A stretch of DNA of 23,870 nucleotides, taken from a virus. The notes under the pieces were generated by a model. It was not told the origin of the DNA. It saw nothing but the letters and a program-made list of their open reading frames with translations, and ran no database searches. Positions 3,968 to 22,261 of this stretch are shown piece by piece (the stretch's first letter is position 1; the number at the start of each line of letters is the position of its first letter). The position numbers were made by a program, and so were the translations under genes. The stretch covers positions 1 to 23,870 of IMG/VR virus record IMGVR_UViG_3300011113_000744. The stretch is one strand, 5' to 3'.

Positions 3968-4520
3968 GTTTACTCCTTAACCAATTTGCTATTAACAAAG
4001 CTTCGGCCATACCATCATGCTTTACCTGCTTAATTTCATGAGCTATAGACGGAAATAAAAGCTTTGCTAATTCAATACTTTTTTTCTTTGCTTCTGCTTT
4101 CTTTTTTCTTTTCCATGAAGAAACTTGAGAAGCAGACATTAATGCTCGTTCTTCTTTAGTTAACTTTTCTTGAGCTAACTCTGGATACATCTCTTTCCAT
4201 TTTTGAGGAGTGCAAAAAGTGTGGGGCAGACTTAATGCTCCAACTATACCCTCCCATATCCCGTGACCTCTGCCAAAATGGTACATAGACACTCCACCAT
4301 TGCCAGGCATAGCATGCGTTAACTCTTGACACACATGCGATTCTTTTCCAACAAACTGTCTAAGATAATTTGACATAGTAAAAACGTCATAGTCAGATTT
4401 CTTTTTATTATTCTTCTTTATTGAAATGCACGGAGTGGGTTTTACAAATATGCACTGACCTTTTATGTCAATAGCAGCAATGCCTCCGCTAATACCTGGA
4501 TCTATGCCCACAAATATCAT
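3957..4520 (-). CDS. RuvC-like Holliday junction resolvase (RNase H fold)
   Basis: The first strand carries GIDPGISGG with D7, the hallmark of the RuvC/RNase H fold. E66 lies in the second acidic motif (CQELTHAMP), and the C-terminal helix has H168-D169-G-x-A-E173, matching the third and fourth acidic positions. The middle stretch, MPGNGGVSMYHFGRG, is typical of phage and poxvirus-type RuvC relatives rather than cellular RuvC. The enzyme would cut branched DNA, clearing junctions after recombination or before packaging. I start it at the ATG at 4520 (187 residues), which gives a TAATG junction with the epimerase; a start 15 bases upstream would add five residues and is less likely. A long Lys-rich helix (about residues 120-150) is notable. 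Confidence 0.9.
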   Translation of the reverse strand: MIFVGIDPGISGGIAAIDIKGQCIFVKPTPCISIKKNNKKKSDYDVFTMSNYLRQFVGKESHVCQELTHAMPGNGGVSMYHFGRGHGIWEGIVGALSLPHTFCTPQKWKEMYPELAQEKLTKEERALMSASQVSSWKRKKKAEAKKKSIELAKLLFPSIAHEIKQVKHDGMAEALLIANWLRSKHGK

Positions 4521-5482
4521 TAGCAGAACCACCAATCAACAGTTTTATCAACACCATCCCAGAATTGAGTAGATGGAGCATAGCCAAGTATAGACTGTGC
4601 TTTTGATATATCTGCTAACGTTTCCCTGACATCACCAGGACGTGGTGGTCTATTTTCCACAACAATCATACCATCTGAAAATTTACTTTTTAAGTAAGCT
4701 AAAAGTTCATTGCAAGAATAATTATTCCCACAAGCAACGTTAAAAGCTCCAGAAACAGTATCTACCTTTTGAGCAGACAACAAACATGCATTAACAACAT
4801 CTCCTACATAGCAGAAGTCTCGTCTTTGCTCGCCATCTCCCTCCATAGCTATGGGGAGTTTATTTTTTATCTTATGCATCCATGCAGCTAAAACAGTAGA
4901 ATAGGCAGAAGATCCGTCTTGACCTGGACCGTAAACATTAAAAAATCTAAGTCGTATGCTATTATAATTTGAAATACTCTCATAAATTTCAAGATACTTT
5001 TCAAAAGTGGCTTTTTGCAATGCGTAGGGACTAACTTGCTTGAGCGGCTCGTCCTCTTTCGTGGGCAAGTTCTTTGCCCCTCCGTATACTGAAGAAGAAG
5101 AAGCAAAAACCATAGGCGTATTAGACTTTAAGCAAGACTCAAGTAGGGCTACAGATTTATTTATGTTGTACTCGTCTGTTCTTCGAGGATTCGCTACAGA
5201 ATAAGCCACTCTTGGTAAAGCGGCCAAATGTATAACTTTGTCAAACATCTTGTCTGCAATTTGGTCAAGTATTTGATTATTAGAAAAATCTACGTTTATT
5301 AGATGATGCGTATTAGAAACTTCCCAATCAGTACCAAGATTTATTCTTGCCTTATCGCACGCGCAACTATCTATATCAACGCCAACAACACTGTCCACCC
5401 CCCACTTGTGCTTGTTGATTACACACTCTCTAAATAATGCAGAACCTATAAATCCAGCTGCACCAGTAATGAGTAATCTCAT
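4520..5482 (-). CDS. NAD-dependent sugar epimerase/dehydratase, UDP-hexose 4-epimerase type
   Basis: A 320-residue extended SDR enzyme, normal length for the family. The Rossmann motif GAAGFIG (G7, G10, G13) binds NAD(H), D36/D38 mark the end of the second strand, SSSSVYGG supplies the catalytic Ser region (129-131), and Y153-x3-K157 is the catalytic pair. The C-terminal segment RPGDVRETLADISKAQ followed by LGY is typical of UDP-GlcNAc/GalNAc 4-epimerases such as WbpP/TviC and related enzymes. A good SD (CGGAGGT) precedes the ATG. It probably interconverts a UDP-sugar in the cytoplasm to feed the glycosyltransferases encoded further right. Exact substrate cannot be read from sequence; a dehydratase or UDP-glucose epimerase role is possible. 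Confidence 0.9.
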   Translation of the reverse strand: MRLLITGAAGFIGSALFRECVINKHKWGVDSVVGVDIDSCACDKARINLGTDWEVSNTHHLINVDFSNNQILDQIADKMFDKVIHLAALPRVAYSVANPRRTDEYNINKSVALLESCLKSNTPMVFASSSSVYGGAKNLPTKEDEPLKQVSPYALQKATFEKYLEIYESISNYNSIRLRFFNVYGPGQDGSSAYSTVLAAWMHKIKNKLPIAMEGDGEQRRDFCYVGDVVNACLLSAQKVDTVSGAFNVACGNNYSCNELLAYLKSKFSDGMIVVENRPPRPGDVRETLADISKAQSILGYAPSTQFWDGVDKTVDWWFC

Positions 5483-8868: not shown

Positions 8869-9976
8869 GATTTTTATGGTATGATATAATAGATTTTACA
8901 ACGAAAGTTTCAAATGCTAATGCTGGTATAATTCCCTGTGACATTTCTTCTCTAGCTTCTTTAATAAAACCAACAATTTCAATTAAGCTTTCAATACTTA
9001 TTTTCGACAAAATTTGCTTTATATAAAATTTAGTTTTAGGATTAATGTCAATAATGTCATTTGTATTTGGACAAGTTTTAGCAAGAAGTATATATCTTAT
9101 AATTCTAGCCATGTTTTTTAAATTGTTTTCATAAGTAATTCCGTCATTTGCTAACCTCAATGACTTTTCAATGCATCCAGCAGCATCTTTCTTGATAATG
9201 CAATTAAATATTTCAACAAACTGATCTTCATCAACTATCATAAGATATTTTTTAACTTCATCTTTTGATATATGACCATCAGAACAAGTAATAATTTTCT
9301 CCAAAAGCTGCAAAGACTTTCTTACACATCCATCACTATGATCAGCAATAATTGCTAAAGCATCTTGGTCAGCTTTTTGACTTTCCAGAGAACAAATTTT
9401 TGCTAAATGAGAAGATATCATTTGGTTAGAAACAGGTTTAAAAACAAAGTCAATACATCTGTTGATAATAGTTTCTTTTAACTTGTCAACTTCTGTAGTG
9501 CAAAAAATAAATATAGTATGACTTGGTGGCTCTTCTATCATCTTTAAAGCAGCCTCAATAGCCTGACCAGTGAGACCGTGAGCTTCATCAATAATGACAA
9601 ATCTTTTTCTGCACTCAAATGGTGCGTATTTGATTTCCTGCCGTAAGTTTCTTATGTCATCAATGCTTCTGTTTGACGCAGCATCAATTTCTCTAATGTC
9701 GTTACACATGCCCTCTACAATCTTTAAAGACAAGCTGCCGTCTTTCATGTCTGGCGTTAAAGATTGACCAGATTCATTATTAACAGCTGCCGCTATAATT
9801 CTGGCAATAGTCGTCTTACCTGTACCGGAAGATCCAGTAAACAGATATGCATGATGAAGCATATTTTTATTTATTGCATTTTTAAAATACGCTTTAACAT
9901 GATCCTGCCCAACCACATCATCAAGCAGTTTGGGTCTGTACTTGTTCGCTAAGCTCGTCTTGTTTACGTATGACAT
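8846..9976 (-). CDS. dnaX: DnaX-like AAA+ clamp loader ATPase
   Basis: With the ATG at 9976 it has 376 residues. The N-terminus has the conserved NKYRPKLLDDVVGQ of clamp loaders; Walker A is GSSGTGKT (48-55), Walker B is VIIDEAHGLT, sensor 1 is FIFCTTE, the arginine-finger region is IINRCIDF (SRC-like), and sensor 2 is in GCVRKSLQLL. The segment REIDAASN with DDIRNL is diagnostic of DnaX. The four-Cys zinc module that normally precedes it is missing: only one Cys (GMCNDIREID) remains. The C-terminal 130 residues form the helical collar. It would load the clamp encoded nearby. A GTG at 10000 is the longest alternative start but adds unconserved residues and has no SD. It overlaps the dNMP kinase gene by 56 bases, unusually long. 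Confidence 0.93.
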   Translation of the reverse strand: MSYVNKTSLANKYRPKLLDDVVGQDHVKAYFKNAINKNMLHHAYLFTGSSGTGKTTIARIIAAAVNNESGQSLTPDMKDGSLSLKIVEGMCNDIREIDAASNRSIDDIRNLRQEIKYAPFECRKRFVIIDEAHGLTGQAIEAALKMIEEPPSHTIFIFCTTEVDKLKETIINRCIDFVFKPVSNQMISSHLAKICSLESQKADQDALAIIADHSDGCVRKSLQLLEKIITCSDGHISKDEVKKYLMIVDEDQFVEIFNCIIKKDAAGCIEKSLRLANDGITYENNLKNMARIIRYILLAKTCPNTNDIIDINPKTKFYIKQILSKISIESLIEIVGFIKEAREEMSQGIIPALAFETFVVKSIISYHKNHVKKESK

Positions 9977-11563: not shown

Positions 11564-12458
11564 AACACATACTCCTGTATACTTTATAAACTTCTTTATC
11601 TGAACATCTTTTTAATTCATGATTACCATAAGAAATTTCAGAAATTAATTCATTGATTACTTTTTTAGTATCTGCAACTTTACTTTTTATAGTTCTTTTA
11701 TTATCAATAAAATTTTTGTGTATCATCATAGAGCCGTTTACTGAAGACATTATATTATCTTTTTCTAAATGAAATAACATTAACAAAAGCATCATGTCAT
11801 CAAACATAGAAAAACAAGATCCAAGTTTATCAATATTTAAATTCATATTTGCTTCAAAATCTTTTTGAGAACCGAGTATATATTTTTTTATAAAACTGTT
11901 ATCTAGTTTTTTTTCATTTATTAAATGACCATAAACTTTAATAAAATCTTTTTCAAAACTTGATATTTTGTAATTTAAGTCATAAAAATCAAATAGTCTT
12001 TTTCGTGAAACTTGAGTCAATACTTCTTGACCCCCTGATAAAGATAATTCCCAAAATAGATACTGAATATAGAAATGTTGATTTTTAGAATTTTTAATTA
12101 CTTCCATATTCCATATTTGATCAGCAATTTCTAGCTGATTTTTAAATTCAAACATGTGCAAAAATACATGAGAGAATATGGAAATCCCATTCATTTTGTA
12201 AGCAGACAGTATATTTCTAACCTTGGCAAAAAAGTACAAATTATTTCTTTCTTGCTCTGAAAAAACATTATTATTTATGATGTTAATTTTTTTATATAAA
12301 ATATATTCTTCATCTGTATTTTTATATGACGCTAAATTTTTGATGAATTCATTTTCAATACTTCCATAAAACAAACTTGCCAATTCTATTTGGTCAAATT
12401 TGCAAGAAATAGCCTTACGAATGTCTTTGTGTATAGAATGTGCTTTAAATAAAAACAT
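11550..12458 (-). CDS. Hypothetical helical protein whose start codon lies in a terminator stem
   Basis: A 302-residue, largely helical protein rich in Lys, Asn, Ile and Phe, with no motif I recognise. The first possible ATG (12458) is the last triplet of the 3' arm of the 14-bp hairpin at 12456-12488. Upstream in frame comes a TAG in the hairpin loop, so no conventional start lies further upstream. The next ATG is near residue 91, so translation either begins at this occluded ATG or at a non-ATG codon downstream. No SD is visible outside the stem. Base composition is more AT-rich than the gene on the other side of the terminator. Reading frame is long and clean, so the gene itself is likely real; the start is uncertain. 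Confidence 0.72.
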   Translation of the reverse strand: MFLFKAHSIHKDIRKAISCKFDQIELASLFYGSIENEFIKNLASYKNTDEEYILYKKINIINNNVFSEQERNNLYFFAKVRNILSAYKMNGISIFSHVFLHMFEFKNQLEIADQIWNMEVIKNSKNQHFYIQYLFWELSLSGGQEVLTQVSRKRLFDFYDLNYKISSFEKDFIKVYGHLINEKKLDNSFIKKYILGSQKDFEANMNLNIDKLGSCFSMFDDMMLLLMLFHLEKDNIMSSVNGSMMIHKNFIDNKRTIKSKVADTKKVINELISEISYGNHELKRCSDKEVYKVYRSMCYGKM

Positions 12459-12488
12459 AGTGGGAGAGGACTAGCCTCTCCCACTATG
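12456..12488 (-). terminator. Intrinsic terminator between DUF3892-like gene and next gene
   Basis: A perfect 14-bp stem (left arm 12456-12469, right arm 12475-12488) with a five-base loop. On the minus strand it is GC-rich and is followed directly by TTTTTATTT, the classic Rho-independent layout. It lies 22 bases after the stop of the 12510-12764 gene. No U-tract follows on the plus strand, so it is one-directional. It is the strongest terminator signal I noticed in the window and divides the gene string into two transcription units unless it is read through. Confidence 0.92.
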
Positions 12489-12509
12489 TCGGCAAAAGCA
12501 CCTAAACAA

Positions 12510-12764
12510 TCAGCGACGACGGCCAGCTGCGACCGGACGACGTGTCTCGCTTCGATTGGAAACTACAGTTGGCAAACTGTAAAGATTGCGAGAAGTGCTG
12601 CTGGTGATATACTCACCCTGTGGGCTACGCGCAACGCGAACACCCTTGATCTTGCCAGCCTTAGCAAGGCGGACTGCCTCGCGACGAGAAACCTGGCCAA
12701 CTCCAGTAATCATGTAACCGACAGTGTGGCGCTTCGTTGAAACAACTCTCTTATAAATCATCAT
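12510..12764 (-). CDS. Small DUF3892-like protein, probably highly expressed
   Basis: An 84-residue basic protein. After a short beta-like start, the core VGYMITGVGQVSRREAVRLA, then KAGKIKGVRVARSPQGEYI followed by LYSLP, matches the DUF3892 pattern (strand, S-R-x-E-A helix, G-x-I-x-G-V turn, G-x-Y, L-P). The tail is Arg-rich (RRPVAAGRRR). The start at 12764 is chosen for its perfect SD (AAAAGGAGA, eight-base spacing); a second ATG follows at once. A strong terminator ends the gene and codons are richer in G/C than most neighbours, all pointing to high output. DUF3892 proteins have no settled function; the basic tail may suggest nucleic-acid binding. Confidence 0.85.
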   Translation of the reverse strand: MMIYKRVVSTKRHTVGYMITGVGQVSRREAVRLAKAGKIKGVRVARSPQGEYITSSTSRNLYSLPTVVSNRSETRRPVAAGRRR

Positions 12765-12771
12765 AGCTTTT

Positions 12772-12778
12772 TCTCCTT
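12772..12778 (-). promoter_or_regulatory. Strong ribosome binding site of the DUF3892-like gene
   Basis: On the minus strand the sequence reads AAGGAGA, with eight bases between GGAG and the ATG at 12764. An almost identical AAGGAGAAAAA leader precedes the gene at 14670, suggesting both small genes are translated at high level. Confidence 0.8.
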
Positions 12779-12792
12779 TTAATTAGCTTTCT

Positions 12793-12807
12793 CTCCGTCA
12801 ATCGGAG
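12793..12807 (-). other. Small hairpin around the stop codon upstream of the DUF3892-like gene
   Basis: A five-bp stem (CTCCG with CGGAG) and five-base loop that contains the first two bases of the TGA stop of the 12798-13304 gene; the last base, 12798, also lies in the loop edge. No U-tract follows, so it is not a terminator. It might be an RNA processing or stability element just upstream of a strongly translated gene. It could also be chance. Confidence 0.35.
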
Positions 12808-13304
12808 TCTAAAGTGTTATCGTCAAAATGCTTTCTCATCATGAGATCATGCAGCTTTTTTTGCATAATATTTATGCACTCTTCTGACTGCATTTCTTTA
12901 AGCACTTTCTTGTTAAAAACTTCTTTGGCATTTAGAACAGACTCAAAAATGCCTTCATCAAGCAATAGTTTTTTAAAAGACTTATTCTCTATTGCATCTA
13001 CAATAAACAAAAGCTCTTCTTCAGTGTAGTGATTTTCCAGATAAATCTCAATGCTTTGAATCAAATCCAACACATAGTCGGAAATTATTCGATCCTTCCT
13101 GTCAGCCATATGTTCGATTATTGAATCTACCCATGCTGACACCACAATAGCACTATTATGCTGATCCATTTCATCACTAGAGCCACTAGTAATCGTAGAG
13201 GTCTGCAGATACATGTCTCTCATGCGATTTGGCTCAAGACTATTGGTAGCTGATTTCAGAATAACATCAGCTAACCTGTGGGCAATTTTACGTGAATGTT
13301 TCAC
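12798..13304 (-). CDS. Hypothetical helical protein (GTG start)
   Basis: A 168-residue helical protein I do not recognise. It starts with GTG directly after the TAA of the preceding gene (TAAGTG), with a GGAAAG sequence upstream serving as SD. The middle part (YTEEELLFIVDAIENKSFKK) faintly recalls DUF2059-type helices, but this is too short to assign. The C-terminal end, rich in Asp, is preceded by a Met/Lys/His-rich segment (LHDLMMRKHFDDN). No signal peptide, so it is probably cytoplasmic. Confidence 0.75.
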   Translation of the reverse strand: MKHSRKIAHRLADVILKSATNSLEPNRMRDMYLQTSTITSGSSDEMDQHNSAIVVSAWVDSIIEHMADRKDRIISDYVLDLIQSIEIYLENHYTEEELLFIVDAIENKSFKKLLLDEGIFESVLNAKEVFNKKVLKEMQSEECINIMQKKLHDLMMRKHFDDNTLDSD

Positions 13305-13643
13305 TTAAAACTTTCCAGTGTAGCCAGACGCAATACCAGCAATATAGCACCAATCACGCACAGAAATCTTACTCTTGTGCTTAAGCACCGAAAGCATGCT
13401 GTTTCTGGACTTGCATGGCCAACTATAAGGCTGCATTAGTCCATTAACAACAAATCTGTCAGCAACCGCGATGCACATGTCATAATTCAACTTGTGCTCT
13501 TTGGAAAACTTACTCACATCTAGAGATGCCTTAGAAAGAAAATGATGCATCATTAATATGCCAACATGTCCTTCAAAATCAGAACCTCTTAAATCGCCTA
13601 TCTCACAACCATGAACAAACTTACTAATGTCTTCAGGATTCAT
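13305..13643 (-). CDS. Hypothetical protein
   Basis: A 112-residue protein of unknown family. It is moderately rich in Cys, His and Trp (VHGCEIGD, MMHHFLSK, PYSWPCKSR, VRDWCYIAG). No regular metal-binding spacing is evident. It follows the phosphoesterase-like gene by 12 bases and abuts the GTG-start gene. The reading frame fills the space between two clear neighbours, which supports it being real. Confidence 0.75.
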   Translation of the reverse strand: MNPEDISKFVHGCEIGDLRGSDFEGHVGILMMHHFLSKASLDVSKFSKEHKLNYDMCIAVADRFVVNGLMQPYSWPCKSRNSMLSVLKHKSKISVRDWCYIAGIASGYTGKF

Positions 13644-13655
13644 ATCCTTACTCCG

Positions 13656-14303
13656 TCAAATCTGCACCGTCGTGTAGTTCCCAACATGGGACCTATTAGC
13701 ACACACGACAAGGTGACTTGTTGCGTTCTGTATTACATTATCCTCAACCAGCTGTCCAAATGCATGAATCTTTAAATTTTTTAGAGACTGCACTTTTTTA
13801 TTCAAGTAAATATCCCCCTGCTCAGATATATCATTACAATTTTTATGCATGTAACAATGATTCCACGTGATTAAAATATCAGTTTCTTCAGGTATGCTAT
13901 CAACAGCAGCTAAGTAAAGATCTATATCTCTAGACTTGAATGCATTTGGCTCCATGTTTGAAAAGTGAATAGGAACCCAAGGCATTGAGTAAACTTTAAG
14001 ACCCTTATAGGTCATTAATTCGTCTTGCAAATAGTTTGCTCTCATATAGTAATTAGCATTTGATCCATAAAACTTTGCCAAATGATCATTTGGACCACCG
14101 CCAAAAATAAAACAAGTGTTTGGATAGCGGTCCATCCATTTATTTAGATGGTCCTCTATCCAATCCACTTGATTTGTAATGTTCCAAGTCAGTAACTCTT
14201 TGTCATAAATAGGCAAAAAGTTTCCGCAGCAAATTAAACAATCTAGATTTTCTTTTAAATCAAAAAGACCGTCACATAAGTCTGTACAAAATCCTATTTT
14301 CAT
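13656..14303 (-). CDS. Metallophosphoesterase-like protein with degenerate active site
   Basis: A 215-residue protein with the strand/motif order of calcineurin-like phosphoesterases: MKIGFCTDLCDG (motif I, D8 but C10 in place of His), LICCGNFLP (motif II, usual GD replaced by G27-N28), FIFGGGPNDH (motif III, GNHD replaced, 67-74), VYSMPWVP (the vxvyGxPw strand), DILITWNHC (motif IV, TH replaced by TWNH, 142-150), and IHAFGQLVED (GHxH replaced by GQLVE). The order and spacing are right while most metal ligands are substituted, so it is probably a non-catalytic or repurposed relative. It follows the small gene at 14344 by 40 bases, with a weak GGA as SD. Substrate or partner is unknown. Confidence 0.8.
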   Translation of the reverse strand: MKIGFCTDLCDGLFDLKENLDCLICCGNFLPIYDKELLTWNITNQVDWIEDHLNKWMDRYPNTCFIFGGGPNDHLAKFYGSNANYYMRANYLQDELMTYKGLKVYSMPWVPIHFSNMEPNAFKSRDIDLYLAAVDSIPEETDILITWNHCYMHKNCNDISEQGDIYLNKKVQSLKNLKIHAFGQLVEDNVIQNATSHLVVCANRSHVGNYTTVQI

Positions 14304-14972: not shown

Positions 14973-16549
14973 ATAGATTTACTTATAATTAGATTTTTAA
15001 AATTATTAATATATTTTATATTAACATAGATTATATCGGATTTTTCTAAATTCGCTTTTTCTAAATCATTAGATTTTTCTATTAAATAATTATCAGTATG
15101 CAAAATTACACAGTCACAATCAGCGTAATTCTTTGCGTTTAGCAAAAAGCAGTCTCTATCATTATTGTCACTGCAACTAAAGCCAATCATATCTGAATGC
15201 ATAAATGCCGCACGATCAATTTCTTTTATTGACAATATGGGAAAGAAAGTTTTTTGCACTTCAGCAATAAGTGGAACATCTGAAGTAAAAGCTCTTTTTT
15301 TTATAATCTTGCTACCAACGACGTGCTTGTTTCTATATGTATTTTTAGGATAAACATTTTTAACCTTACTGATTTTTTTATCAGAAACCCTATTTTGAAT
15401 TACTTGCTTTATGTTTTCCCTTACATTTGCAGCTCTTGCTTCCTTATTTAATTTAACAAATTTTTCTGGAGCTGATCTGCCCGAAGTCTTATTATTAAAA
15501 TTTTCTATTACGGAAGATATAACTTTTTCATATTGTTGTTTTAAATAATTTTTATTTAAATTTTTAAAAGCCCAATTTTGAGTAGAAGCCTTAAGGGACT
15601 CGAGTTTTTCATTATTTGAACAAAGCATATTAAGTATAGATTCAGCTTCTACAAAAGAGTCAAATACATAACCATTAACTCCATTAACTATAAGCTCATT
15701 ATTGCCAGGAAGATTAGAGCAAACTACTGGCACTCCAGACGCCAAACTTTCCAGTACAGCCATAGATGTTCCCTCTGGTCTATTAATGTGATACAGGAAA
15801 ACATCCCACGATTTAAGTTTACTAAATTTTTCTTCATCATTATTTATTGCTCCTATCATGGCGCAATGACTTTTTTCTTTCCTGCACGATTCAGCTAAAG
15901 TGTAGGCTTCATTATAATACTGACCTGTACCCATGTATTCATGAAAATGATTTTTAGATAAACTTAAATTAGACACCCATTTAATAAAGTCTGGACTATA
16001 CTTTATGGCATTAATTGAATTAATACGTCCTGTTTTAAAAATTGAAGTATCTTTAACTTCTCTACAAGAAAACTGAGACACAAAGTTTTGGTCTACAATG
16101 TTTTTTATAGTATAAAAATTAGTGTTTCTATTATTGACGGACATTTTTTTTCTCATATGCTCGCTTACACATACACACTCTGTAAAATTAAACAATTTAT
16201 TAAAATTTGCGCAATCAGAATATGTATGATTGATAACAAAATATGGTCGTTTCACTTTCCATAATAAATTAGCAAACATTTTTGTTGGAGAGCACATAAG
16301 TTTATGAAAAACAAAAACGCTTTCATTATACTTATTACTTTTCGCGTCATTAATAATAGATTCAAAAGTAGAATAGCTTGCTGGAACTGGGAAAAAATCC
16401 GGCATGTTTTTGTCTACTCTTTTAGTTTTTACGCACACAACTTCTTGTTCGCTTATGAATGAAGAATCACTCAATGCATCATATATTTGCTTCAAAGAAG
16501 ATGCAGCGCCAGAATTAAAAGTTTTTTCTATGACATGAATAAGCTTCAT
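14951..16549 (-). CDS. GT4-type glycosyltransferase with long C-terminal extension
   Basis: A 532-residue protein. Residues 1-345 have the GT-B layout of family 4: an N-terminal domain (MKLIHVIEK, NSGAASS), INHTYSD and CVSEHM near the domain interface, FKTGRIN at the start of the donor domain, and E259-G-T-S with E267 (the E-x7-E nucleotide-sugar motif) followed by SGVPVVCSN and NGYVF. Residues about 350-532 are an added region of unknown family, first very basic (to about 425), then alpha/beta. The enzyme would transfer a sugar from a nucleotide-sugar donor in the cytoplasm. It overlaps the phosphatase gene by 4 bases and so belongs to the sugar cassette. Donor and acceptor are not readable from sequence. 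Confidence 0.88.
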   Translation of the reverse strand: MKLIHVIEKTFNSGAASSLKQIYDALSDSSFISEQEVVCVKTKRVDKNMPDFFPVPASYSTFESIINDAKSNKYNESVFVFHKLMCSPTKMFANLLWKVKRPYFVINHTYSDCANFNKLFNFTECVCVSEHMRKKMSVNNRNTNFYTIKNIVDQNFVSQFSCREVKDTSIFKTGRINSINAIKYSPDFIKWVSNLSLSKNHFHEYMGTGQYYNEAYTLAESCRKEKSHCAMIGAINNDEEKFSKLKSWDVFLYHINRPEGTSMAVLESLASGVPVVCSNLPGNNELIVNGVNGYVFDSFVEAESILNMLCSNNEKLESLKASTQNWAFKNLNKNYLKQQYEKVISSVIENFNNKTSGRSAPEKFVKLNKEARAANVRENIKQVIQNRVSDKKISKVKNVYPKNTYRNKHVVGSKIIKKRAFTSDVPLIAEVQKTFFPILSIKEIDRAAFMHSDMIGFSCSDNNDRDCFLLNAKNYADCDCVILHTDNYLIEKSNDLEKANLEKSDIIYVNIKYINNFKNLIISKSIWAEKEK

Positions 16550-17022
16550 TTAATCATTATGCTCATATATTCTGTTTTAAATAATTTAAAAAGTAATTCG
16601 TCTATTACTCCCTTACCTCCGCAAGATTCAAGCCTATTAACACCAGGAACACTAAGTACTGCATGACAAGCATCATACGGACAAAAACATTGACCACAAG
16701 CCTGCATAGCACATATATCCTGAGGCCCATCTCCTACGAAAATGCAATCAGACGCCAAATAACCCTGCTGTATGCATGTAGATATAACAGCTTCTTTTTT
16801 GTCTTTGCATCCTGCAATAAGTTTTAATTTATTGTTTTTAATTTTTTTTATTGTAGCAATATCTGTTGCTGCAGTTAAAAAAACAAAATTAAAACCATTT
16901 TTTACAAATGCGTTAATTGCATGAAAATCTCTAGTAGAAAATCCCTTGCCTATCATACCCTCTTCGTTATGATAATACATTCCATCAGTCAAAACACCAT
17001 CAACGTCTGAAAAAATTATCAT
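16546..17022 (-). CDS. KdsC-like HAD phosphatase (acylneuraminate/KDO/KDN phosphate type)
   Basis: A 158-residue HAD enzyme without a cap domain, as in KdsC. Motif I is D6-V-D8-G-V-L-T-D-G, with FSTRDFHAI next (the KdsC F-x-x-R-D), motif II is the T50 after FVFL, the motif III lysine is near KDKKEA (K75), and motif IV is GDGPQD (97-102). It would remove phosphate from a nine- or eight-carbon keto acid phosphate. Directly after NeuB (ATGA junction), so it most likely dephosphorylates the NeuB product. This parallels the Bacteroides KDN set of synthase, phosphatase and CMP-transferase. Confidence 0.9.
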   Translation of the reverse strand: MIIFSDVDGVLTDGMYYHNEEGMIGKGFSTRDFHAINAFVKNGFNFVFLTAATDIATIKKIKNNKLKLIAGCKDKKEAVISTCIQQGYLASDCIFVGDGPQDICAMQACGQCFCPYDACHAVLSVPGVNRLESCGGKGVIDELLFKLFKTEYMSIMIK

Positions 17023-17864
17023 TTAAAAGAATTCCTTAGCTTAATAGATTGACTTTTTTCCTCGTCAGTACATTCATTATTCATAAATTTTAACGCTCGC
17101 CCAACATGTCTAATGTCTCTTTTTAATGTTTTAAGACCGTTTGGCTCAAGACTAGCAGCAGCATCTGTATGCCTAAAAGTTCTATCATCTATAAAATGTC
17201 TTTCAATGAATGTAGCCCCCAGTGCAAGAGCTGCAATGTCAGCAGATATTCCATATCCGTGATTACTAAACCCTACCTGACCAAATAAATTATAAATATT
17301 AGATATTTCTTTTAAATATAGTCTTTCAAATGGACATGGATATTCAGTAGTGGTATGATAAAATATTACATTTTTTGACTTAAATTTTGTAAATAAAATA
17401 TTTCTGTCATCCTGATTCATCATACCCAAGCTTATGTGCAACATGCCGTCAAAATTTGACAAGCAATATTCAATTAAATTAAAATGCATGTTACAAGCAC
17501 TTGGTATCTTTAGCAATCCAGGCTTTATGTCTATTATTTCTTCGGCACTGTCCATATCCCAAACGCTACATCCGTACTCAACCCCCAATTCATCACAACG
17601 TTGTTTTAAAACTTCATGATCTTGTATGTCTAACTCTAAATTTAGTCTGTGCTCTAAATACGTGTCACCATATGCAAAATGAGGATTTGGATGAGGCTTG
17701 TTAGCTATATCATTAGGTACAGACTTGTAAGGATTTCTTTTTTGAAACTTAACAACATCGGCACCATTATATGCCGCTAATTCCGTAAGCATAATAGCCC
17801 TTTTTAAAGAGCCTGCATGAGACGCACCTATTTCGGCAACAAGCTTGCAATGTCTTTCTTCCAT
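17019..17864 (-). CDS. neuB: NeuB-like nonulosonate synthase lacking the SAF domain
   Basis: A 281-residue TIM-barrel enzyme of the NeuB family. It has VAEIGASHAGS at the first strand, ADVVKFQ, KIPSACNMHFNL, HTTTEYPCPF, VGFSNHGYGIS, and IERHF with D-x-T; H202 and H223 match the two metal-binding histidines of NeuB. It condenses PEP with an N-acylmannosamine, mannose-6-phosphate or related sugar to give a nine-carbon keto acid. Usual NeuB proteins have about 340-350 residues with a C-terminal SAF (antifreeze-like) domain that closes the partner's active site; this one stops at LRNSFK, where the domain would begin. A GGAGG SD precedes the ATG, which lies within the end of neuA. Confidence 0.92.
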   Translation of the reverse strand: MEERHCKLVAEIGASHAGSLKRAIMLTELAAYNGADVVKFQKRNPYKSVPNDIANKPHPNPHFAYGDTYLEHRLNLELDIQDHEVLKQRCDELGVEYGCSVWDMDSAEEIIDIKPGLLKIPSACNMHFNLIEYCLSNFDGMLHISLGMMNQDDRNILFTKFKSKNVIFYHTTTEYPCPFERLYLKEISNIYNLFGQVGFSNHGYGISADIAALALGATFIERHFIDDRTFRHTDAAASLEPNGLKTLKRDIRHVGRALKFMNNECTDEEKSQSIKLRNSFK

Positions 17865-18559
17865 TCAGAAACCTCCATATTTTTTATTGCTATAAAATTT
17901 AAAAATTCTAATTCCAAATAAGTATCAATTTGAAAAGATCTTAATTCATCATTTACGTGCATGTAAGAATCTTCTGACAATCTTAAATTTTTATTCATCA
18001 TATGCTCAACAGTGCATGCATAAATGTTTCCGTCTTCATGATAGTAAAACTCATTTTCACACAAATCTTGACGCATTTTTCTTTTATGAATATCATACAT
18101 AGGAATTTTATTATACCACAAAAACGGAGTAACAGGCTGTACAGTAAAACCAGATTGCTTGCCTGATTTTTTAAAATCCGAATCAAATTCAGCTATTAAA
18201 TCATTATGTCTTAATGGAGAAGTAGGCTGTAATATATAAATAAAATCTTCACTCTTTACAGAATCATTGTTTTGTAAAAATTCCAATACTGAAGATTCAG
18301 TAGTAGATTTATCTTGACTTGTTAAATCTGATCTAATAATTTTTTTTATATTACATCCACCAATATTGCCATTAAAAATATCTGCATACGCCAAAATAGA
18401 GACATCGTTAGATGAAAGATATATGGTATCAAAAATTTCAGACTCTGCAGCTGCTAAGATTGTCCAATAAATAAGCGGCAAACCATTCAGTGGCACTATA
18501 TTTTTATTTTTGATTCCTTTTGAACCGCCACGAGCTGGAATAAAGCAAATATTTTTCAT
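17828..18559 (-). CDS. neuA: CMP-nonulosonate (CMP-sialic acid) synthetase
   Basis: A 243-residue nucleotidyltransferase with the NeuA signature IPARGGSKGIKNKNI (residues 7-21), LSSND (second strand), the IRSDLTSQDKSTTESSVLEF segment (about 75-94), LQPTSPLR (110-117), HEDGNIYAC, and the IDTYLELEF end motif. It activates a nonulosonic acid with CTP to the CMP sugar used by sialyltransferase-like enzymes. It starts one base after the preceding stop with AGGAAAAA as SD and overlaps neuB. Length fits NeuA and PseF/KDN CMP-transferases; the sugar specificity cannot be decided. Confidence 0.93.
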   Translation of the reverse strand: MKNICFIPARGGSKGIKNKNIVPLNGLPLIYWTILAAAESEIFDTIYLSSNDVSILAYADIFNGNIGGCNIKKIIRSDLTSQDKSTTESSVLEFLQNNDSVKSEDFIYILQPTSPLRHNDLIAEFDSDFKKSGKQSGFTVQPVTPFLWYNKIPMYDIHKRKMRQDLCENEFYYHEDGNIYACTVEHMMNKNLRLSEDSYMHVNDELRSFQIDTYLELEFLNFIAIKNMEVSEWKKDIASLLPK

Positions 18560-19306
18560 TCATTTTTTCCTGTCACCATATTTTTCTAATACTTTATCGA
18601 GTTCAAATTGGTCAAAAATATTTAAAGCAGAGTCTTTAGTTGCGTTTATTATATGAGTATCACATTTTTCATTCATTTTTTTAAACAATTTCCAATATTC
18701 TAAAATATCTTGACACTCTTTTGATCCAATTGCAATTTTTGCATGAGAAGGCATAACCGATCTCTTATCTAATCTTACGGGCTTTACAAAACCTGGATAC
18801 TCCCAAAAGTATCTTTTGTCACCATTCATTTTGCAATCACATCCAAGCATCACAATTGGATTACAGCCCATCATCCGCATAATGTGTATGCCGCTTGCCA
18901 AACTGGTACGAGCCCCTATAACCGGCTGCTGGCAATCTCTGCCCATTACTAAGCCTTTCATGTTATATCTTTTTGTTTTAGGGTCAAAATACCATGTGTG
19001 CTCAAACATACAAACCTCATGCTGACGCAAATGATAAGCTCTACCTTGAAACTTTTTATCATAAAGAAATTTTACACAAGACGACTGCGACAAATCTCTT
19101 ATAAAATAAGACCAATTAGAAACAGACCAGTCGTCACTGACAAAATAATCACATGATTTGTCAAACAGTATTGAAGAATTTACTGTCATAGTAACATATG
19201 GGGACAGTAAATCTGGCTTAATATCCCTTAAAGATGGACCAGATCCTAAGATAAAACCAAGTTTATCTTTATGAATATTTTGAAATTGGCATATGTTTAA
19301 CGCCAT
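18560..19306 (-). CDS. Maf/DUF115-like putative glycosyltransferase, copy B
   Basis: A 248-residue protein. It carries GSGPSL at residues 21-26, VNSS at 42-45, a SDDW turn (57-60), and a GCDCKMNGDKRYFW segment (155-168), the layout of the central domain of Maf (motility accessory factor, DUF115) proteins, which is related in structure to GT42 sialyltransferases. Maf proteins attach CMP-activated nonulosonic acids to flagellin Ser/Thr. Here only the minimal domain is present. It sits just before neuA and overlaps the end of its paralogue by 38 bases. I infer a nonulosonate transferase; MptE-type pyrophosphokinase relatives share the fold and are the alternative. No SD is visible. Confidence 0.8.
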   Translation of the reverse strand: MALNICQFQNIHKDKLGFILGSGPSLRDIKPDLLSPYVTMTVNSSILFDKSCDYFVSDDWSVSNWSYFIRDLSQSSCVKFLYDKKFQGRAYHLRQHEVCMFEHTWYFDPKTKRYNMKGLVMGRDCQQPVIGARTSLASGIHIMRMMGCNPIVMLGCDCKMNGDKRYFWEYPGFVKPVRLDKRSVMPSHAKIAIGSKECQDILEYWKLFKKMNEKCDTHIINATKDSALNIFDQFELDKVLEKYGDRKK

Positions 19307-20033
19307 AATTTATTAAATCTGTGTTTGATAAATGCTTATGCTCAAAAGGTATTAAAGTAGAGGAATCATTTATGTTAAAAATATTTACATTTTTTATTTT
19401 TGCGTAGTTGCTAAGAGATTTGAATACATCTATATTCATGTTCCATACATTTTTTTGCATAGGCACTGGCTGCATTATGCGCGTAGGCTGTGCAAAAATG
19501 GTGCGGTTATTGCTGATAATTTTTTCTTTTGGTTGTATATGTTTTGGTAAAAATTGCCAAAAATGAGTTTTTTCTCCGCTTACTGTATGATCTATTCCAA
19601 ATAGATAAATGTTATTAAATCCAATTTTAATAGCTAAATCTATAGCTGATGGAACAGAAGAATTATATAATAATCCATCGTCATTTTCTTCAATAATATC
19701 TTCTCTTGTTTTTCTTGGTTTAAAAAAAAGAAAATCCTTCAATTCATCCGCATACTTGGCCCAAGAGTCTCTAACAATTTTATAACAAAAATCTGATTTT
19801 ACTTTGTCAAAATAAGACCATTTTCTACATAAACTATCATTGCTAATCCATGCACGCAAAATATCTTTTTCAAATTCTCTATCCCATTTAGTTTTTAATA
19901 TAGCACTATTAACAACAATCATATGACAGCTGCAAGCAGTAAAGTCATAAGAAACAAGTGACGGACCTGCTCCTAAAATAACAACAGGTTTTTTAGCCCA
20001 TGAAATTGTTTCTAGCTTCTTGTACGAGATCAT
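19269..20033 (-). CDS. Maf/DUF115-like putative glycosyltransferase, copy A
   Basis: With the ATG at 20033 it has 254 residues; a longer frame to 20132 would lie inside the helicase gene and add unconserved residues. GAGPSL lies at residues 21-26, VNSA at 41-44, SNDS (64-67), VPSAIDLAIKIG (128-138) and GIDHTVSGEKTHFW (146-159), all in the same order as in the next gene but with low identity, so the two are old paralogues. As for copy B, the likely role is transfer of a CMP-activated sugar to a protein or glycan. It overlaps the helicase gene by 41 bases; no clear SD, so translation may depend on the helicase gene. Confidence 0.8.
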   Translation of the reverse strand: MISYKKLETISWAKKPVVILGAGPSLVSYDFTACSCHMIVVNSAILKTKWDREFEKDILRAWISNDSLCRKWSYFDKVKSDFCYKIVRDSWAKYADELKDFLFFKPRKTREDIIEENDDGLLYNSSVPSAIDLAIKIGFNNIYLFGIDHTVSGEKTHFWQFLPKHIQPKEKIISNNRTIFAQPTRIMQPVPMQKNVWNMNIDVFKSLSNYAKIKNVNIFNINDSSTLIPFEHKHLSNTDLINYGVKHMPISKYS

Positions 20034-21924
20034 AATACTGACTCTGGTCACATAGTCCACTCTCAAATATAAATCTACTTGGCATCTTGAGTTCTCTAGA
20101 AAAACCTCCATCAGATATTGCAGTACTAACAAAAAGCTTATCCATAGCTCTTGTTATAGCAACATATGCTAATCTTCTTTCTTCTTCAATGCCAGTAGCA
20201 CTTTCTGCAATTGATCGACGGTGAGGTATAATATTTTCTTCAAAACAAGGAATGAAAACATATTTAAATTCAAGACCTTTTGCGGCATGCATGGTCATAA
20301 TTTTGACTGAGTTTATTTCATCCTGCTCAGACGCTTCCTTAGGAGTAGACATTAAAGACACAGACATCAAGAATTCTTCTAAAGATTGCTGAGAGATTGA
20401 AACGCTCTTAATTAACTCTTGAATATTTTCAGTTTTATCCACTGGAACTTCGCCCTTAAAAGTTTTAATATAATCAAAATACTTAGTGGCTTCTAATAAG
20501 TGACTAATGAGATCTGCAACAGACAATCCAGTAAGATCCTTGCTAAATATATCTTTCAACAATCTTATGAGAGCATTTTTTTGAGCTTCCTTTAATTCTG
20601 ACGAACTGCTTATATATTCAGCAATGTTTTCAGACATGCCATTTTTCAACGACAGTGAACTAATAAACTGAACACACTTACCTCCCAATCCACGCTTTGG
20701 CTTGTTCATAAAACGAGATAGGCTTAAAACATCTCTGGGATTATTAACAAATTTCAACATTGACACTACATCTTTTATCTCTTCTCGATCATAAAATCTA
20801 AAGCCACCAGTCATAGAGTATGGCACATTATGTCGCATCATTGCTTGCTCAATACTACGAGTTAAATGACTAGCCCTCACTAAAACTGCCACGTCATTCA
20901 TTTTTGTACCCATTAATTTAATTTTTACAATATTTCTACATAGCACATCTGACTCTTCATCTCTTGTCATATGCACAGATAAAGAAACTGGTTCTCCAAT
21001 TTCTCTGTGTGCAATAATCTGAGAATTAAGTCTATTTGGGTTATTGCATATTAAATTAGAAGCAGTATTTGCAATTGCGCCAGTACAACGATAGTTTTTA
21101 CTTAACCTGTAAACCTTACAACCTGTCTCTTTAATAAACTTAGAGACTTGACCTGGATTGGCTCCACGCCATTGATAAATACTCTGGTCAGTGTCTCCTA
21201 CCATAAATATGTTTTGACGATTTTCACACATAATTTTTGCAATCTCAAATTGTATGGTATTAGTATCTTGAACTTCATCAACCATCATAAAATCATAAAG
21301 GCTTTTTACTTCTTTTCTAAATTCATGATTATTACATAGTTCATCCCAAAAGTTATACATAATACCACTAAAATCTATAGCATTTACGTTCGACACCGCT
21401 TGCTCATACAAACTATACAAATGTTCATAAGCAGGATTGGAAGACCTCAATCCGTCTATTATCAAATCTTTAGTTAAAGCTTTTTCTCTCAAAGAATCAT
21501 AAAGATACTTAAATTTTTCTAACTCTTCTTTTTCTAAAGATACATGGTGATCTTCTGCTACAGATTTTAACAAAGAATCTACATCATCAGGGTCCATAAT
21601 ATTGCAAGATCTATATGATCTTTTCACACTTTTAGAGTATCGCAAAATTTGAAGACATGTTTTATGAAAAGTGCCAACAGACATGCCATCAACCGAAACG
21701 CCAACATCTTGAGCTAGCTTATTAATACGCTCTTGCATTTCTCGAGAAGCCTTATTAGTAAATGTAACAAGCAATATTTTTGACGGTTGTATACCCTTTT
21801 TTACTAATGATATAGCTCTATGAGTTATTACTCTTGTTTTTCCAGCCCCAGGACAAGCACTTACCAAGCATGGGCCAAAAACATGGTCCACAGCCATTAT
21901 TTGTTCATCATTTAGTTTTGACAT
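19993..21924 (-). CDS. UvrD/Rep-type SF1 DNA helicase
   Basis: A 643-residue helicase with all SF1A motifs: Q-motif LNDEQIMAV (4-12), motif I ACPGAGKT (23-30), motif Ia VTFTNKASREM, motif II VDEVQD (215-220), motif III FMVGDTDQSIYQWRG (240-254), LSKNYRCT (IV), KIMTMHAAKGLEFKYVF (V), EERRLAYVAITRAMD (VI). The expected 3'-5' translocase unwinds DNA in repair, recombination or replication restart, as Dda-like or UvrD-like phage helicases do. Start at ATG 21924, one base after the glutaredoxin stop; a frame opening at 21987 lies inside that gene. The neighbouring nuclease, Gam-like and SpoVS-like genes suggest a shared DNA-end processing role. Confidence 0.95.
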   Translation of the reverse strand: MSKLNDEQIMAVDHVFGPCLVSACPGAGKTRVITHRAISLVKKGIQPSKILLVTFTNKASREMQERINKLAQDVGVSVDGMSVGTFHKTCLQILRYSKSVKRSYRSCNIMDPDDVDSLLKSVAEDHHVSLEKEELEKFKYLYDSLREKALTKDLIIDGLRSSNPAYEHLYSLYEQAVSNVNAIDFSGIMYNFWDELCNNHEFRKEVKSLYDFMMVDEVQDTNTIQFEIAKIMCENRQNIFMVGDTDQSIYQWRGANPGQVSKFIKETGCKVYRLSKNYRCTGAIANTASNLICNNPNRLNSQIIAHREIGEPVSLSVHMTRDEESDVLCRNIVKIKLMGTKMNDVAVLVRASHLTRSIEQAMMRHNVPYSMTGGFRFYDREEIKDVVSMLKFVNNPRDVLSLSRFMNKPKRGLGGKCVQFISSLSLKNGMSENIAEYISSSSELKEAQKNALIRLLKDIFSKDLTGLSVADLISHLLEATKYFDYIKTFKGEVPVDKTENIQELIKSVSISQQSLEEFLMSVSLMSTPKEASEQDEINSVKIMTMHAAKGLEFKYVFIPCFEENIIPHRRSIAESATGIEEERRLAYVAITRAMDKLFVSTAISDGGFSRELKMPSRFIFESGLCDQSQYYDLVQEARNNFMG

Positions 21925-21925
21925 T

Positions 21926-22261
21926 TTAATTTTTCTTACAATTGTTACATCTTGACTTACCAGTAAATGTGGCACCTTTTTTGCCACTTATCTTTTCAGC
22001 CAATTTATTCATAAAATCTTGAGCACCTATTGTGCCAGCATGCTCAAATACAATACTGCCATCAACCCTATCATAGCATTGAGCATGAGGTAGTTTATCG
22101 ACATTATACTTATCGCAAAGAGCTTGTGTGTCACTGGAATTTGCATCAACAAAATCGTATGGTACGCCCATCATTGACATTTCTTCACATAGTCTTTTGC
22201 AATATATACATTCGTTTGCACCAAATATTCTAATTTTAAGTTTACTTGTAGAATCACTCAT
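21926..22261 (-). CDS. Glutaredoxin/thioredoxin-fold protein with extra C-terminal CxxC
   Basis: A 111-residue protein with the thioredoxin fold: first strand KIRIFGANEC, active site C18-I-Y-C21, DKLPHAQCYD with the cis-Pro (P58), and a C-terminal helix. The tail (about 94-111) is Lys-rich and contains C105-N-N-C108, a second CxxC outside the fold. It may supply electrons to a phage or host ribonucleotide reductase, a common role of phage glutaredoxins; no reductase gene is in the window. AGGAG precedes the ATG. The extra cysteines might bind metal or relay electrons. Confidence 0.9.
   Translation of the reverse strand: MSDSTSKLKIRIFGANECIYCKRLCEEMSMMGVPYDFVDANSSDTQALCDKYNVDKLPHAQCYDRVDGSIVFEHAGTIGAQDFMNKLAEKISGKKGATFTGKSRCNNCKKN

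Follow-up and report, generated by a model that had tools for sequence, protein, structure and literature searches.

A putative nonulosonic acid cassette conserved in very large tailed phages

The window, a 23,870-base fragment of an IMG/VR virus record, carries nearly all of its genes on the minus strand, including a compact block that apparently serves the synthesis, activation, and transfer of a nonulosonic acid. Read from 20033 to 16546, its five genes encode two PF01973-like (DUF115/Maf) proteins, a NeuA-type cytidylyltransferase, a NeuB-type synthase, and a KdsC-type phosphatase of the haloacid dehalogenase (HAD) class (Table 1). The two Maf-like genes overlap by 38 nucleotides (nt), the second abuts neuA with a zero-base gap, neuA and neuB overlap by 37 nt, and the neuB and HAD genes share a 4-nt ATGA overlap. 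The initial annotation of the window had described these five co-directional, abutting or overlapping genes at 16546–20033, and its coordinates are exact; the families it named are recovered by profile searches, weakly in the case of the PF01973 pair. It missed the continuation of the operon, a glycosyltransferase of family 4 (GT4) that belongs to this block, its gene sharing 4 nt with the HAD gene. At the other end, the gene for a UvrD-type helicase overlaps the first PF01973-like gene.

Table 1. Operon genes and other conserved genes of the window (aa, amino acids; CMP, cytidine monophosphate; PEP, phosphoenolpyruvate)
Feature	Position	Strand	Length (aa)	Evidence
Maf/GT42-like protein 1, putative CMP-nonulosonate transferase	19269–20033	-	254	PF01973, PHROG 4603, fold match
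Maf/GT42-like protein 2, paralogue of protein 1	18560–19306	-	248	PF01973, PHROG 4603, fold match
NeuA-type CMP-nonulosonate cytidylyltransferase	17828–18559	-	243	PF02348, PDB match
NeuB-type PEP-condensing synthase, barrel domain alone	17019–17864	-	281	PF03102
KdsC-type HAD phosphatase, putative sugar 9-phosphatase	16546–17022	-	158	TIGR01670, NF058599
GT4 glycosyltransferase, about 180 additional C-terminal residues	14951–16549	-	532	PF00534 (E 8e-14)
UvrD/Rep-type helicase, upstream neighbour outside the pathway	19993–21987	-		PF00580 (E 3e-67)
NAD-dependent sugar epimerase/dehydratase	4520–5482	-		PF01370 (E 2e-50)
Conserved protein	13656–14303	-	215	

A separate virus contig, L006, matches the window in the order of these six genes and of the genes next to them, with identities of 64, 69, 45, 68, 55, and 47% from Maf-like protein 1 to the GT4 enzyme. 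Third codon positions are identical at 45–55% and second positions at 69–86%; since the third positions are far less conserved than the second, selection constrains these frames at the level of the protein. A single NeuB query against viral and genome collections found almost nothing, and a four-sequence alignment was used instead; the profile search of viral contigs recovers more than 500 NeuB relatives. Of 67 non-redundant viral NeuB loci, selected by similarity to the query and therefore giving biased fractions, 53 have a NeuA gene nearby, 39 a PF01973-like gene, and 12 a HAD gene of this type. All four gene types occur within about 20 kb in G003, G004, G005, G006, G011, and G012, cassette genes are also clustered in L015, L018, L019, and G025, and the clustering persists despite reordering and inversion of NeuB in G003, G006, G012, and L015. 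GT4 reading frames lie near the cassette also in L015, G006, G011, and G012. Meanwhile, the UvrD family adjoins the cassette in L006, L010, L011, L012, L018, and L090, and this helicase marks a conserved genomic position of the cassette. The initial annotation had read the region as phage DNA with one conserved functional block, and both parts hold: the cassette is a conserved block of very large tailed phages, beyond what chance would produce.

The relatives with the clustered set are tailed-phage contigs of 92–548 kb. The NeuB tree places the window within a clade of 13 rows (support 100/87), and HAD is present in all 13, including a member from the L091 contig that was labelled with HAD in advance and whose HAD gene beside NeuB was confirmed later. 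Within the stretches examined, none of the eight members of the sister group has a separate HAD gene; in its L020 member, NeuA and HAD are fused into one 363-aa protein (1273–2364) that has the Gly-Glu motif found in the phosphatase acting on the 9-phosphate of ketodeoxynononic acid (KDN). The clade contigs, the longest of 548 kb, have genes in common with the window at about 30–50% identity, among them those for the sigma factor, clamp loader, UvrD, and exonuclease, and a search for the same genes in four other NeuB phages gave only one weak UvrD match. To escape circularity, the sigma factor was used as the query in place of NeuB: NeuB is present in seven of the eight contigs longer than 100 kb obtained in this way, and a newly found one, G025 (298 kb), carries NeuB, HAD, NeuA, and a transferase pair. 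The eighth contig, G024, comes from metagenome 3300005690, the same metagenome as the cassette-bearing L013. The tailed-phage identity is supported by tail-protein matches in G004 and by phage-type replication proteins; the Terminase_6N model gave zero matches, and so did the T4 portal model, the latter without a working control.

The window NeuB matches PF03102 well above the cut-off (E 5e-52, 177 bits against 22.1). Eleven positions of NmNeuB (E25, K53, Q55, K129, S132, S154, Y186, S213, H215, H236, and D247), which we take to be the PEP, metal, and catalytic residues, are all identical in the window protein. The chain terminates at the linker, just ahead of the usual start of the SAF (antifreeze-like) domain. 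The Leptospira structure 6ncs, with a chain of 290 aa, likewise has no SAF domain, so its absence is compatible with the wider NeuB family. A search of 19 records for SAF, NanE, and NeuC found none of them in the window, L006, G004, or G005; separately, G011 has another nonulosonate cluster at 168–190 kb, its second, which includes NeuC, a SAF-bearing NeuB, and NeuA. The window NeuA matches PF02348 (E 5.5e-15, 56.2 bits against a cut-off of 22.6), and its PDB match is the CMP-NeuNAc synthetase 6ifd (E 2e-16).

The HAD protein matches TIGR01670 (E 5e-15) and NF058599, the KDN-9-phosphate phosphatase model (E 1e-14). Its DxD, Thr, Lys, and GDxxxD motifs are present, and D6/D8, T50, K75, and D98/D102 are kept or almost kept across 11 relatives. 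Glu56 is presumably the specificity residue of KDN-9-phosphate phosphatase; its position is occupied by Ala52 in the window and by Ser in most relatives, and the 4hgq chain has Ala at position 56. HAD accompanies this NeuB clade in every row, as a 9-phosphate route would predict, and such a route is likely for the cassette. The initial annotation had pointed to the missing NeuC and to host sugar phosphates as the source; since NeuC and NanE are not found in the nearest relatives either, such phosphates remain the probable starting point. As judged from the genes, the likely course starts from a hexose 6-phosphate of the host and passes through an intermediate phosphorylated at C9, which is then dephosphorylated; several sugars are conceivable. 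KDN, previously offered as the simplest product, was rejected as a specific assignment because it is unproven: the HAD protein reaches 55.1 bits on NF058599, under the equivalog cut-off of 180, Ala replaces Glu56, and NeuB lacks SAF and has a different sugar pocket, with Cys at NmNeuB Glu134 and His at Gly245. KDN is a possible product, and by analogy the conversion of mannose 6-phosphate to KDN would be the simplest case.

The AlphaFold (AF2) models of the two Maf-like proteins are confident (pLDDT 89 for protein 1 and 93 for protein 2). For protein 1, the top five PDB matches are all GT42 sialyltransferases, with CstII at E 6.5e-5; for protein 2, CstII ranks second (E 1.6e-3), followed by GT29 sialyltransferases. 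Both proteins match PHROG 4603, 'alpha-2,3-sialyltransferase' (E 2e-7 and 1e-8, respectively), and 20 of 20 relatives match PF01973 at E ≤0.01, the best at 2e-11. At the level of sequence, the similarity to GT42 is marginal (E 0.02 by profile), phmmer searches of either protein against the PDB gave zero matches, and protein 2 gave zero matches in phage isolates. In other phages, a GT4 enzyme fused to a PF01973 domain (651–688 aa) is encoded upstream of NeuB in L034 (4034–5989), L048 (3918–5984), L049 (3173–5209), and L058 (4022–5995), directly adjoining it in three of the four. In the 484-kb uncultured phage LR756508 (L004), three GT29 sialyltransferase genes lie around NeuB (9247–9879 and 11978–13322; E 2e-26 to 8e-32). 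These fusions and GT29 genes tip the balance towards sugar transfer; with them and the CstII fold matches, both Maf-like proteins look more like CMP-sugar transferases than pterin kinases, in line with the initial annotation.

Taken as a whole, the operon probably allows a jumbo phage to make and use a CMP-activated nonulosonic acid in infection, with a probability of roughly 0.6. NeuB would condense PEP with a host hexose 6-phosphate, mannose 6-phosphate or N-acetylmannosamine 6-phosphate being the simplest choices; the HAD protein would strip the C9 phosphate, and NeuA would then produce the CMP-sugar. The two single-domain Maf/GT42-like proteins, aided by the GT4 enzyme, may transfer the sugar to a surface acceptor. 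The epimerase/dehydratase elsewhere in the window, 81% conserved in the sister contig G002, could supply sugar nucleotides to the GT4 enzyme. Of the initial interpretation, the phage block and the transferase reading are supported, and the phosphatase fits a 9-phosphate route, whereas the KDN assignment is not supported.

The most likely acceptor would be the virion proteins of the phage itself, within the infected cell. In G004, the cassette lies near giant-protein clusters and tail genes. Furthermore, proteins of G002 and four other lineage members contain Ser/Thr runs of 14 to 88 residues, and proteins with such runs occur in five of nine lineage genomes and in none of four other NeuB phages; poly-Ser was scored from translated runs, as a DNA pattern overcounts (some matches are other repeats). 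The gene context of G004 and these runs are suggestive of the virion as acceptor. Because the compact-cassette phages G004 and G005 have no Ser/Thr runs, the hint stays at that level and poly-Ser serves as a lead. Giant virion-like proteins of 1,849+ and 3,947 aa are encoded in G002 by L092 (12450–17999, minus strand) and L093 (2465–14308, minus strand), the former with poly-Ser runs of up to 39 residues, dockerin-type repeats (PF00404, E 7e-9), and a Hint-like stretch. Of two proteins encoded in G011 at about 236,700–241,800 (L097, 6711–8294 and 9987–11837), one has a Ser run of 88 residues and the other one of 70.

Several observations weigh against this interpretation. No virion genes are recognised in the window; moreover, Ser/Thr-tract proteins were not found in the examined sequence of G004, G005, G010, and G012. 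The PF01973 scores of protein 1 (E 1.7e-6, 28.3 bits) and protein 2 (E 2.6e-4, 21.3 bits) are both under the Pfam gathering score of 34.6 bits. For protein 2, MptE (8sd5, E 4e-4) ranks above CstII, and the Foldseek probabilities of 0.99–1.00 for the GT42 matches are accompanied by TM-scores of 0.42–0.48, which for these models is a related fold with no close structure. Like the HAD protein, NeuA and NeuB miss their equivalog cut-offs, with 88 bits for NeuA on its best NCBIfam model, PseF (cut-off 206), and 161 bits for NeuB on TIGR03569, the N-acetylneuraminate synthase equivalog (cut-off 399.65). The residues of the NeuB sugar pocket are unlike those of characterised enzymes.

The main rival keeps the same pathway and places the sugar on the host envelope (capsule, lipopolysaccharide, flagellin, or S-layer), so as to block superinfection or change the surface. 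Such remodelling has a precedent in the prophage proteins EpaA/EpaB, which change the pseudaminic acid of the host capsule (PMC12053666), and GT4 enzymes, usually glycan builders, occur both in this operon and, in other phages, as fusions with the Maf-like domain. However, polymerase, flippase, and ligase genes are not recognised next to the cassette, and the transferases are single-domain proteins with no evident membrane anchor, although no systematic test for one was made. Envelope modification is unlikely but deserves serious attention. A more ambitious version of virion glycosylation is doubtful as a whole: an entire jumbo-phage lineage would make a nonulosonic acid by a self-contained system beyond the known KDN and Neu5Ac enzymes, marked by a NeuB without SAF, a non-canonical sugar pocket, and a dedicated phosphatase. 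The lineage would O-glycosylate its own giant virion proteins by paired minimal Maf/GT42 enzymes, with poly-serine tracts as long as 88 residues as the sites in several members.

It is very improbable that the PF01973-like pair are MptE-type pterin or nucleotide pyrophosphokinases lying beside NeuA and NeuB incidentally. PF01973 takes its name from MptE, and the Methanocaldococcus jannaschii MptE is the best solved match of protein 2, but only GT42 enzymes fill the top five for protein 1, and the frequency of PF01973-like genes at viral NeuB loci, the fusion to GT4, and the PHROG sialyltransferase match all favour transferases. Use of the CMP-sugar for phage DNA base modification (sugar hypermodification) is scarcely credible: the operon lies among DNA-replication genes and has a gene for a deoxynucleoside monophosphate kinase in its surroundings, yet no nucleotide hydroxymethylase is recognised among the proteins scanned and the kinase and cassette are about 25 kb apart in G004. 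To our knowledge, nonulosonate transferases use glycans or proteins as acceptors, which also counts against DNA as the target. Equally remote is an eight-carbon sugar of the 3-deoxy-D-manno-octulosonic acid (Kdo) type as the product, for although the HAD protein matches KdsC models as well as the KDN-9-phosphate phosphatase model and NeuA has weak matches to Kdo cytidylyltransferase models, the synthase belongs to the NeuB family with KdsA models unmatched, and NeuA is matched best by PseF and CMP-NeuNAc synthetases.

Similar enzyme sets are known from cells. In the CMP-Kdn pathway of Bacteroides thetaiotaomicron and Prymnesium parvum, the synthase uses mannose 6-phosphate to form KDN (PMC6200933). 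Both sets combine a synthase, a 9-phosphatase, and a CMP-transferase, but the phage HAD protein lacks Glu56 and scores far under the KDN-9-phosphate phosphatase model, the phage NeuB has no SAF domain, and the phage set includes transferases. In the case of flagellin O-glycosylation by Maf, the Maf_flag10 domain (PF01973) is reported to resemble CstII in structure and Maf accepts several donors (PMC11339370). The phage proteins have a PF01973-like domain and are likewise encoded alongside nonulosonate genes; unlike Maf, they are single-domain (about 250 aa against the 666-aa chain in 5mu5), paired, under the Pfam cut-off, and without a flagellin gene. The GT42 sialyltransferases (Campylobacter CstII and Pasteurella 9c08) are similar in size and are the best solved folds for protein 1 and second for protein 2, but differ by the marginal sequence similarity already noted. 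EpaA/EpaB of Acinetobacter baumannii are also enzymes of nonulosonic acid that are encoded by a phage and work at a surface, but they modify pseudaminic acid made by the host (PMC12053666); the present cassette appears to build its sugar from host phosphates.

The unannotated phage records MH319754 and LR756508 encode NeuB proteins 31–33% identical, and no HAD gene was found beside either. For glycosylation of mycobacteriophage virions, we know of no sugar-acid synthesis genes involved. Glycans on the capsid and tail proteins of these phages are attributed to Freeman 2023 in PMC12619734. A 2013 list of virome genes already includes neuA and neuB (PMC3877843); that list and the two phage records place NeuB or NeuA in viral sequence but describe neither a conserved cassette nor a pair of transferases. 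The open-licence literature yielded no account of a complete phage nonulosonate cassette, subscription papers and preprints lying outside the search, and priority is not proven. Single neuA or neuB genes in viral data are known, and the apparently new element is the complete conserved set, including a dedicated phosphatase and two transferases.

Sialic-acid-like sugars are usually regarded as cell products. If phages keep a conserved cassette to make and transfer such a sugar, they would have control of a charged surface sugar, which would affect adsorption, superinfection, and recognition; enzymology would gain compact transferases and a SAF-less synthase.

Other genes of the window encode a glutaredoxin-like protein, a Cas4-type exonuclease, a sigma factor, a clamp, a clamp loader, a deoxynucleoside monophosphate kinase, and a Holliday junction resolvase. 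Promoter-like sites are no more frequent than in shuffles. The 215-aa protein is 75% conserved in L006 and has no Pfam match. In G004, DNA polymerase III alpha is divided between two genes (L104, 10579–15318), one with the PHP domain and the start of the NTPase domain and the other with the NTPase remainder and the finger, and an actin-like protein (L109, 1043–2119) matches Volactin (PF25216, E 1e-64); related proteins occur in G003, G006, and G011.

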